From: Nostoc sp. T09
Lineage (GTDB): Bacteria > Cyanobacteriota > Cyanobacteriia > Cyanobacteriales > Nostocaceae
Length of the DNA: 64,000 bases
Assembly: GCF_002154695.1 (NCBI RefSeq)
Contig: NZ_MTAV01000121.1
Coordinates: forward strand, 1-64,000
Reading direction: 5' to 3'
Part shown: one piece after another, positions 61,091 to 64,000 of the stretch
How positions within the stretch are numbered: position 1 is the first letter of the stretch
Layout of the letters: the number at the start of each line of letters is the position of its first letter
Notes under the pieces: model-generated
The model's database searches: none
Told to the model about the DNA's origin: nothing
What the model saw: only the letters and a program-made list of their open reading frames with translations
Made by a program: the position numbers and the translations under genes

Positions 61091-62074
61091 ATGACTACAG
61101 TTGCAGTCAAAGACAGCAAACAACAAATAGTACAAGCATTTCAACAAATTATTGCAGAAAGGAAAAAATTAGATTCAAAAATAGCTACGAAACAAGAAGA
61201 AGCAGCAAAGGCAAAAAACCAAGAAATTCTGGTAGCTGCTTCTACATACACTGTTGATAGTATTGTTAAAGGTTTAGCAGATTTACAATTAGAGTTTGGT
61301 GGCATTGTCAATGCCCTATCTGAAAAATTAGCTCAAGAAAATTCTAAATTAGATGAATTAAACCGAGCTATAGAAATTGCCAATCAGCAGTTACAAGAGC
61401 TTCAGCAGATCAGAATTGTAGCAGACGCTTTAGATATTTTAAATCAAGAACATCAAGAAAAATTAAAAATTTTAGAACAAGAAATTGCCAGTAAGCGAGA
61501 AGCTCTTGAGAAAGAAATTACCACTAGGCGTAAAGAGTGGCAAAAAGAGCAAGCAGAATACGAAGAAGCACTACAAGCTTATAACGATTTATTAGTTAAA
61601 CAACGCACCTCAGAAGCAGAAGAGTATCAATATAAGTTAGAAACAACTCGAAAAATAACTACAGATGCATATGAGGCAAGAAAACGCAACTTAGAACGGG
61701 AAATACAAGAAAACACTCAACAGAAACAGAAAAACTGGGCTGAACGTGAAAAAATCCTCACTGAACGTCAACCTTTGTTTACAGAATACGAGAAAAAAGT
61801 AGCAGCATTTCCTACCGAGTTGGAAGAAGCAGTTAAGAAAGCCAGAGAAGAAGCAATTAAAGAGACAAGTCAAAAGGCTAAAGTCGAAGCTGATTTGTTT
61901 GAGAAAGAGTGGGAATCTAGCAAACAGAGTTATGAATTAAAAATTCAATCTTTAGAAGAAACTATTCAAAAACAAACTCAGCAAATTGAAGGAATTTCTG
62001 CTCAACTACAAACTGCGTTGAAACAGGCGCAAGACTTAGCAATGAGAGCTTTTGATAGTTCTAATACTAAATAA
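61091..62074 (+). CDS. lfiA: coiled-coil filament protein, LfiA-like
   Basis: A 327-aa protein that is nearly all coiled coil (heptads from about 75 to 320, rich in Glu/Lys/Gln). A short globular N terminus contains STYTVDSIVKGLADLQLEFG. No membrane segment. Anabaena Alr4504 and Alr4505 (LfiA/LfiB), which co-polymerise and maintain filament shape, lie next to the sphR gene as I recall; the same context holds here. A ribosome site AAAGGAG (61077-61083) precedes ATG 61091. It shares a body plan with the next gene. Confidence 0.75.
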   Translation: MTTVAVKDSKQQIVQAFQQIIAERKKLDSKIATKQEEAAKAKNQEILVAASTYTVDSIVKGLADLQLEFGGIVNALSEKLAQENSKLDELNRAIEIANQQLQELQQIRIVADALDILNQEHQEKLKILEQEIASKREALEKEITTRRKEWQKEQAEYEEALQAYNDLLVKQRTSEAEEYQYKLETTRKITTDAYEARKRNLEREIQENTQQKQKNWAEREKILTERQPLFTEYEKKVAAFPTELEEAVKKAREEAIKETSQKAKVEADLFEKEWESSKQSYELKIQSLEETIQKQTQQIEGISAQLQTALKQAQDLAMRAFDSSNTK

Positions 62075-62141
62075 TGATTAATTAGATGATGACAATTTTA
62101 ATTGTCTTGATAAGTGAATTTTGAAATCATGGAGATTTGTT

Positions 62142-63221
62142 GTGGTAGTTAAAAAACCAACTGATAAGAGCACTAAAGCTGAGATCCTTCAAGCTTATGA
62201 AGAGTTAGCAAAAGAGACAGCAGCCGTTAAAACACAACTGAATCAAGCACTGAAAGAAAACCAATCTGTTGCTAAAGAGAAGCCCAAATTAGAGCCAACA
62301 ACTACTATGAATCCACAATCTACTGTTCAGCAAAAGATGAATTATACAATTGAAAGCTTGGCTAAAATTCAGTTAGGCTTTGGTAGTGCGGCCAATGAAT
62401 TATCCGAACAGCTAACTACGCAAGCCTCTAAATTAGCAGAAATTAGAGAAAATGTAGAAAAGGAAGTAGAACAGCTAAAGCAACTACATAATTTAGAAAT
62501 ATCTGAAGATATTTTGGATACTTTAATTACTAACTATGAAGATAATTCTAAAAACTATCAAGAAGAGTTTAGTCAGCAGAAAGAAGTATTATTACAAGAA
62601 ATAGATGATCAAAGGAAAACTTGGATAAAAGAACAAGATGAAAGTAACAGATTAATCAAAGAAAGAGATGAAAATCTCAAAAAGACTCGACAAAGAGATG
62701 ATATTGAGTATAAATATAATTTAGAACTGCAACGGAAGTTAGCAAAAGATGAATACGAACAGCAGCAAAAAGAATTAAACAAGCAATTAGAAGAATTTCA
62801 GCAAGAAATAGAGAAAGAGTGGGCTGAACGCGAAAAAATAATTGCTGAACGCGAAAAACAATTTGAAGAATATAAAGCTAAGGTAGAAGCATTTCCAAAA
62901 GATAAAGAAGCTGCTCTCAAAAAAGCAACAGAGGAAGGTAAGGGCATTGCTTACTATCAAGCTAAAATAAAATCAGATTTATACAGTAAAGAAGTAGAAG
63001 GGCAAAAACGTTTTTATGAACAGAGATTGCAATCTTTAGAACAAAATATTACTAATCAAGATACTCGCATTCAAAACCTTTCTAAGCAACTTGAATCTGC
63101 CCTCAAGCAAGTTCAGGATTTAGCAGTAAAAGCTATTGAAGGAACTGCAAATGTAAACTCATATCAAGCAATTAAAGAAATAGCCTTAGAACAAGCAAAA
63201 AGTCAAGTGAAGAACAAATAA
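62142..63221 (+). CDS. lfiB: coiled-coil filament protein, LfiB-like
   Basis: A 359-aa coiled-coil paralogue of the preceding protein. Matching parts are YTIESLAKIQLGFGSAANEL with YTVDSIVKGLADLQLEFGGI, EKEWAEREKIIAEREKQFEE with NWAEREKILTERQPLFTEYE, and QLESALKQVQDLAVKA with QLQTALKQAQDLAMRA. Start GTG 62142 is preferred because GGAG (62131-62134) lies seven bases upstream; the TTG at 62121 has no ribosome site. It is 67 bp after lfiA, so probably one operon and a heteropolymer partner. Confidence 0.75.
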   Translation: MVVKKPTDKSTKAEILQAYEELAKETAAVKTQLNQALKENQSVAKEKPKLEPTTTMNPQSTVQQKMNYTIESLAKIQLGFGSAANELSEQLTTQASKLAEIRENVEKEVEQLKQLHNLEISEDILDTLITNYEDNSKNYQEEFSQQKEVLLQEIDDQRKTWIKEQDESNRLIKERDENLKKTRQRDDIEYKYNLELQRKLAKDEYEQQQKELNKQLEEFQQEIEKEWAEREKIIAEREKQFEEYKAKVEAFPKDKEAALKKATEEGKGIAYYQAKIKSDLYSKEVEGQKRFYEQRLQSLEQNITNQDTRIQNLSKQLESALKQVQDLAVKAIEGTANVNSYQAIKEIALEQAKSQVKNK

Positions 63222-63244
63222 GCTAATTGTATTTTCCAAATAAA

Positions 63245-63276
63245 TGTAGAGATGTAACTAGAGTTACATCTCTACA
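63245..63276. terminator. 14-bp perfect hairpin after lfiB
   Basis: Perfect 14-base arms (63245-63258, 63263-63276) with loop TAGA; the core is GTAGAGATGTAAC. No T run follows on the plus strand. On the minus strand it is followed by TTTATTT and could also end the small gene at 63322-63438. Confidence 0.65.
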
Positions 63277-63321: not shown

Positions 63322-63438
63322 TTAGTTGTCTCTTTTAGGCGGAATACCATTATTTATCGGTTTTTTTCTGCTTGCTGCTTGATTAGCTATATTTTTATTA
63401 TTTGATGATTGCTGAGAATTATTTTGTGTGTTGGACAT
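63322..63438 (-). CDS. small protein, 38 aa, NNG-P motif
   Basis: ATG 63438 to TAA 63322. The product is Asn/Gln/Ser-rich and then basic: it begins MSNTQNNSQQSSNNKN and ends SRKKPINNGIPPKRDN. It shares the pattern RKxPxNNGxP.K with the small protein at 63673-63798. A hairpin lies 46 bp downstream. No membrane helix, family unknown. The shared motif in two independent frames supports it as real. Confidence 0.6.
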   Translation of the reverse strand: MSNTQNNSQQSSNNKNIANQAASRKKPINNGIPPKRDN

Positions 63439-63565
63439 AAGACTAAACCTGTGAATAATTTATTTATCTATGTTTTAAATCTACATAGTGTGCAGCTAAA
63501 TCTCCGGAAATTATTTAAATACTTTATATTCAAGAGAATTCAAAACAGTTAAAAAATAGGTATTC

Positions 63566-63599
63566 AAAAAAATAGAGACGCTATAACTTTACGTCTCTA
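63566..63599 (-). terminator. terminator after small gene 2
   Basis: Arms TAGAGACG (63573-63580) and CGTCTCTA (63592-63599); the minus strand runs into seven T. It lies 74 bp past the stop at 63673. Confidence 0.78.
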
Positions 63600-63672
63600 A
63601 AACAGAGGAAACCCATTATTTTTATTTAAAAAGTTTAAAAATTAAATTCTCAAAAATTCAATAACCAGACAC

Positions 63673-63798
63673 TTAGTTTGTATCATCCAATTTTTTAGGC
63701 TGCTGTTGATTCTCAGGCTTTTTGTTGCTGTTGAATCTGATAGCACCAGGCTCAGTTTTGGCTGGCTTGCCATTGTTGGGAGGTTTTCGACGAGCCAT
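63673..63798 (-). CDS. small basic protein, 41 aa, NNG-P motif
   Basis: ATG 63798 to TAA 63673. It begins MARRKPPNNGKPAKTEPGAI and the second half is rich in Asn/Lys/Gln. The N-terminal RRKPPNNGKPAK resembles the C-terminal SRKKPINNGIPPK of the neighbouring small protein. A strong terminator follows. Very basic and probably disordered; it could bind nucleic acid or an acidic partner, but no function is known. Confidence 0.62.
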   Translation of the reverse strand: MARRKPPNNGKPAKTEPGAIRFNSNKKPENQQQPKKLDDTN

Positions 63799-63856
63799 AG
63801 AAACACAATCTTTGATAGTTAACTCTCTACAAATTGAACTACAGGAGTATAAATTA

Positions 63857-64000
63857 TTAATCCGGAAAATTTAGGAAAAGAGCTAACGTGTAGCCTAATA
63901 TATCTTGCTGCTGGTAGATACTCATCAATTTTCCGTAAAAGGATGAGTGTCCCATATCTCCAGATGTTGACTTTTCCACATGAGTATCCCATTTTGGCAG
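63857..64000 (-). CDS. possible 3' end of a minus-strand gene (partial)
   Basis: A frame open from the right window edge to TAA 63857 encodes 47 residues including KLMSIYQQQDILGYTLALFL. Composition is protein-like. No start is inside the window. Cannot be identified. Confidence 0.4.
   Translation of the reverse strand: MPKWDTHVEKSTSGDMGHSSFYGKLMSIYQQQDILGYTLALFLNFPD

Follow-up and report, generated by a model that had tools for sequence, protein, structure and literature searches.

Two small basic proteins with DIF1-type promoters beside lfiAB in Nostoc: a candidate heterocyst-induced micropeptide family

Heterocyst formation is one of the main models for multicellular patterning in bacteria, and the short peptides PatS and PatX are central to it. 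In heterocyst-induced promoters the DIF1 motif, TCCGGA, lies in the −35 region; the patS and hetR promoters lose their (pro)heterocyst expression when it is replaced, and DIF1-type promoters need HetZ to drive patS, hetR and patX (PMC7377430). PsynDIF, a synthetic heterocyst-specific promoter, combines DIF1, 17 nt and an extended −10 region running from −13 to the transcription start (PMC6133370). Here we describe two short genes whose upstream regions carry the same arrangement, and compare them with these and other small cyanobacterial systems.

Genes A and B, their products and their relatives

The window, which is the whole 64,000-nucleotide stretch that was analysed, contains two short minus-strand genes, recognized by profile matches and codon-position bias:

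63322 to 63438, minus strand: gene A, 38 codons plus stop, small basic protein
63673 to 63798, minus strand: gene B, 41 codons plus stop, small basic protein

A preliminary description of this DNA had reported minus-strand frames of 38 and 41 codons with a common motif, and both are indeed present at these positions. The product of gene A is MSNTQNNSQQSSNNKNIANQAASRKKPINNGIPPKRDN (38 aa, pI 11.2) and that of gene B is MARRKPPNNGKPAKTEPGAIRFNSNKKPENQQQPKKLDDTN (41 aa, pI 10.4). The A product begins with a polar N-terminus rich in Asn, Gln and Ser and carries the motif, SRKKPINNGIPPKRD, at its C-terminus; in the B product the motif, RRKPPNNGKPAKTE, is located at the N-terminus. The form originally proposed, RKxPxNNGxP, fits A literally; B reads RRKPPNNGKP, and the exact form common to the two is [R][RK]KPxNNGxP. 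Its occurrence in both genes is not due to chance, because the six frames of the window contain P.NNG.P exactly twice, whereas order-1 Markov windows predict 0.03 occurrences.

Both products are hydrophilic throughout (GRAVY −1.7 and −2.0), and reading the sequences revealed no hydrophobic stretch, signal peptide or membrane segment in either. AlphaFold returned a pTM of 0.21 for each, with local confidence reaching a moderate level only near the motif. Neither A, B nor consensus-like relatives had any match in Pfam or NCBIfam up to E = 10, the A and B transcripts had no Rfam match at the gathering score, and a literature search turned up no paper on either the motif strings or DIF1 small proteins.

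Relatives were screened by single-sequence search (99) and by profile across 218 Nostocaceae genomes. The profiles detected B in 40 of the 218 and A in 48, 47 of the latter at E <= 2e-8. Together these amount to 62 genomes with A or B (26 with both, 14 with B only and 22 with A only), and the majority of the 218 have neither gene by these profiles. The ten named loci of a narrowed B alignment include Nostoc sp. 106C, Atlanticothrix silvestris CENA357, Dendronalium phyllosphericum CENA369, Fortiea sp. LEGE XX443, Tolypothrix brevis and Plectonema radiosum NIES-515. No credible member was found outside the Nostocaceae in an order-wide sample of 391 genomes; two weak matches (E 0.0016 and 0.009) were obtained there, one of which sits in a 297-codon frame. 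All 62 carriers possess a nifH-family sequence, 57 above the curated cut-off and the other five as partial matches. As a separate observation, the nifH matches in genomes G023, G046, G248, G257 and others break off around profile position 141 and some contain a stop codon, resembling a gene split by an excisable DNA element.

Among close relatives compared group by group, variation falls mainly at third codon positions, with 60/54/122 variable columns over the three positions in B (chi-square p 1e-8) and 58/45/115 in A (p 5e-9). Gap runs, counted per sequence in the A and B alignments, are multiples of three in 14 of 14 cases inside the coding sequence, against 20 of 77 in the 60 nt flanking it on either side. 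Third-position bias and exclusively in-frame indels indicate that selection acts on the protein. Values of dN/dS range from 0.08 to 0.54 in all groups except one of three species (0.79), and all three stop codons are in use among family members. Judged by these substitution patterns, A and B are real protein-coding genes under purifying selection.

A profile–profile comparison aligned A and B over 15 columns (B 2–16 with A 23–37; E 6e-7, probability 92%), and each profile retrieves the other family at low score. By this comparison the two are paralogues over the 15-residue motif RKxPxNNGxPxKT[D/E]. The preliminary description had raised the idea of a separate peptide family, had proposed looking for homologues across cyanobacteria and for a synonymous-site excess, and had named missing homologues or frame-breaking changes as evidence to the contrary. 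With 62 carrier genomes, a bias at p of about 1e-8, internal indels that are all multiples of three, purifying selection on the frame and paralogy of A with B, the idea of a family is well borne out.

Further members extend it. A third paralogue of 31 aa, MTTPKQGSQSKQIKQAPRPKKPKKTESGASK, lies about 0.3–1.3 kb downstream of B in two genomes (G241 and G025) and has an exact TCCGGA+17+TGTA at −60. Longer relatives in G114, G115 and G030 carry two motifs in the pattern xPPxxGKPxKxEAG ... RRTPPRTLGKPxKxESGGT and are preceded by a TCTGGA+16+TGTA element; G030 also encodes a short member of the A/B family. Several of these further members each have a DIF1-like promoter. Another conserved small protein of a different kind, MSDDKNKEQKGGSERDIKPPNTGKPRKTEPGGSRGIEP..., was observed in three other genomes (G028, G145 and G147); it has a KPPNxGKPRKTEPG core in common, with no DIF1 element nearby.

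Promoters, terminators and decayed copies

The promoters, which were absent from the preliminary description, are the strongest clue to the function of A and B. The elements around the two genes are as follows:

63840 to 63866, minus strand: DIF1-type promoter of B, TCCGGA at 63861–63866, 17 nt, TGTA at 63840–63843
63482 to 63508, minus strand: DIF1-type promoter of A, TCCGGA at 63503–63508, 17 nt, TGTA at 63482–63485
63566 to 63599, minus strand: intrinsic terminator of B, 9-bp hairpin followed by seven T
63237 to 63276, minus strand: terminator-like hairpin after A, 14-bp stem, 4-nt loop, T-rich tail

In the window, TCCGGA is positioned at −68 of B and −70 of A; across loci it is found 57–77 nt before the start codon, with TGTA following 17 nt on. 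This spacing holds in 39 of 40 representative promoters (19 B and 21 A), including 19 of 19 for B. The exact TCCGGA+17+TGTA combination precedes B in 33 of 40 cases and A in 4 of 46, and with at most one DIF1 mismatch the counts become 35 of 40 and 39 of 46. In most A promoters DIF1 is altered at one base, to TCTGGA or another variant, the exact motif being present in the window genome and its nearest relative (G000 and G005). Both promoters thus show the features of the DIF1 class, TCCGGA with at most one mismatch and a 17-nt spacing to the −10 region, where TGTA does not derive from a published consensus and the published promoter is matched by geometry only. Because the geometry is the same as in PsynDIF (PMC6133370), transcription is predicted to start near 63830 for B and near 63472 for A. 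In several genera the A promoters also contain a TTGAC/TAATAT-like sequence, and this combination of TTGAC...TAATAT with a singly changed DIF1 suggests that A may be partly vegetative there.

Elsewhere in the same 61 loci (1.45 Mb, both strands) the exact combination occurs six times, twice before the third paralogue and four times at decayed B copies (G010, G247, G251 and G254). In the neighbourhoods studied it therefore marked only family members, decayed members and the third paralogue, which suggests a cheap discovery rule. A genome-wide search for TCCGGA-N16..18-TGTA in the window's own genome returned 17 sites, and the reversed control 5; most of the other sites do not precede obvious heterocyst genes, so a TGTA at relaxed spacing does not by itself provide specificity. 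Taken as positive controls for the promoter, hetR and patX of this genome yielded no clear exact match: hetR has only CCCGGA at −150, without TGTA, and the search for patX through an HRGTGR peptide gave no convincing gene.

The preliminary description had also noted a hairpin after each frame, one of them a clear T7 terminator, and we found both. The B terminator reads TAGAGACGT-N9-GCGTCTCTA followed by seven T, with arms at 63599–63592 and 63580–63573, and a hairpin with a T run between B and A is also visible in several relatives. The stem after A spans 63276–63245, with the tail ATTTATTT; it is placed between A and the convergent lfiB, and may serve both strands.

In the four genomes with a decayed B, the remnant lies upstream of A with its promoter intact; the start codon is lost or early stops have appeared, and the terminator region is kept in three of the four. 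A transcript from such a copy would be non-coding, which could mean that the decay is recent or that a role for the RNA has outlasted the frame. This bears on the reading in which A and B are dual-function or purely regulatory sRNAs, similar to NsiR1 or NsiR8, with the RNA as the active molecule and the frame secondary. Short transcripts with their own promoter and terminator resemble the HetR-dependent sRNAs described previously (PMC4734099), and the B promoter outlives the frame in G010 and several genomes of group g39. However, the third-position bias and in-frame indels denote selection at the protein level, the 3′ UTR is more variable than the coding sequence (0.29 versus 0.18 for B; 0.44 versus 0.24 for A), and lost start codons with early stops are the pattern expected of decay, all of which leaves an RNA-centred role quite unlikely. 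An identity of A or B with NsiR8 or NsiR9 is not suggested by the coordinates of these in PCC 7120 (4.45–4.55 Mb). Since B has been lost in several lineages, it is dispensable for heterocyst formation.

Genomic neighbourhood and lfiAB

Next to A lie two genes on the opposite strand, whose products LfiA and LfiB we take to be ZicK and ZacK (Alr4504/Alr4505):

61091 to 62074, plus strand: lfiA
62121 to 63221, plus strand: lfiB

The gene order is hisA, B, A, then lfiB and lfiA on the opposite strand, a response regulator and a histidine kinase, followed in the window by phoU; hisA is beyond the window edge, upstream of B and on the same strand. As a side observation, the minus-strand segment 57782 to 60653, beyond lfiAB, encodes PhoU, an SphS/PhoR-like histidine kinase and a PhoB-like response regulator, probably a phosphate-sensing operon. 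The preliminary description placed A and B just after the filament-protein operon; the position is correct, but the orientation differs, as lfiAB is on the plus strand and stands tail to tail with A and B.

That description also proposed that the peptides could be partners of lfiAB. In its most specific form, this would make them accessory proteins that bind and tune the LfiA/LfiB coiled-coil heteropolymer. The physical linkage extends beyond the tail-to-tail arrangement in the window, with lfiB within the fetched neighbourhood at 29 of 39 B loci and 29 of 46 A loci. Co-occurrence fails, however: among 22 carriers tested that have no adjacent lfiAB, lfiB is absent genome-wide in 18 and located elsewhere in 4. 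In addition, A and B are on the opposite strand with separate DIF1 promoters, and lfiAB is no more constant a neighbour than hisA (present at 38 of 39 B loci) or the SphR/SphS-like two-component pair. Given how often lfiB is missing from carriers and how steady these other neighbours are, the adjacency looks like shared synteny. The 18 of 22 carriers lacking lfiB make a functional pair unlikely, and the binding and tuning of the heteropolymer very improbable.

Proposed role and comparison with known systems

We consider that A and B are probably heterocyst-induced, disordered, basic micropeptides produced from DIF1-class monocistronic units and acting as motif-docking effectors. Each gene would constitute such a unit, comprising a DIF1-class promoter, a leader of approximately 30–35 nt, a frame of 37–41 codons and an intrinsic terminator. 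Given the promoters, nitrogen step-down would soon be followed by increased transcription in cells that are entering the heterocyst fate, and the published behaviour of DIF1 promoters suggests that induction would depend on HetR and HetZ. The composition of the products (pI 10–11, no predicted fold, a single conserved linear motif of 15 residues) points to cytoplasmic, intrinsically disordered basic peptides, in which the motif R[RK]xPxNNGxPxKT[DE] may dock onto one protein, or nucleic acid, of the differentiating cell, in the manner of other small effector proteins of cyanobacteria. Expression in the heterocyst is predicted from the promoter class. A DIF1-type promoter is conserved on almost every unit, which ties the family to heterocyst differentiation in a directly testable manner, and a conserved family with such promoters that falls outside Pfam and NCBIfam provides a short, testable list of candidates.

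Cyanobacteria possess other short soluble effector proteins, such as the glutamine synthetase inactivating factors (gIFs) and PirA, and the gIFs are comparable to A and B in basic charge and disorder. Unlike these, the A/B family has a heterocyst-type promoter, and the lack of any Pfam or NCBIfam match sets it apart in sequence. With NsiR1 and NsiR8/NsiR9, the predicted A and B units have in common short monocistronic transcripts with their own promoter and terminator (PMC4734099). NsiR1, a DIF1 prototype, is present in tandem copies, and A and B likewise form a tandem pair with DIF1-type promoters. They differ from these RNAs in that their transcript contains a frame under purifying selection and has no match at the Rfam gathering score.

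PatS and PatX are likewise small, and heterocystous cyanobacteria express them from promoters that contain the DIF1 motif (PMC7377430). This promoter class, together with small size and basic character, could indicate diffusible HetR inhibitors of the same kind. In contrast to PatS and PatX, the RG(S/T)GR pentapeptide is absent from every A or B member inspected, the Sec signal peptide that characterizes PatX is lacking, and the family was found only in part of the Nostocaceae. A PatS- or PatX-type role would therefore require a different HetR-binding sequence, and we regard it as unlikely. The micropeptide reading can tentatively be taken further: A and B may represent a new heterocyst family that shares the DIF1 programme of PatS and PatX and uses a different docking motif to act on a target in the differentiating cell. 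If so, multicellular cyanobacteria would have a second type of developmental peptide, whose rapid gain, duplication and loss among genera could tune lineage-specific differentiation.
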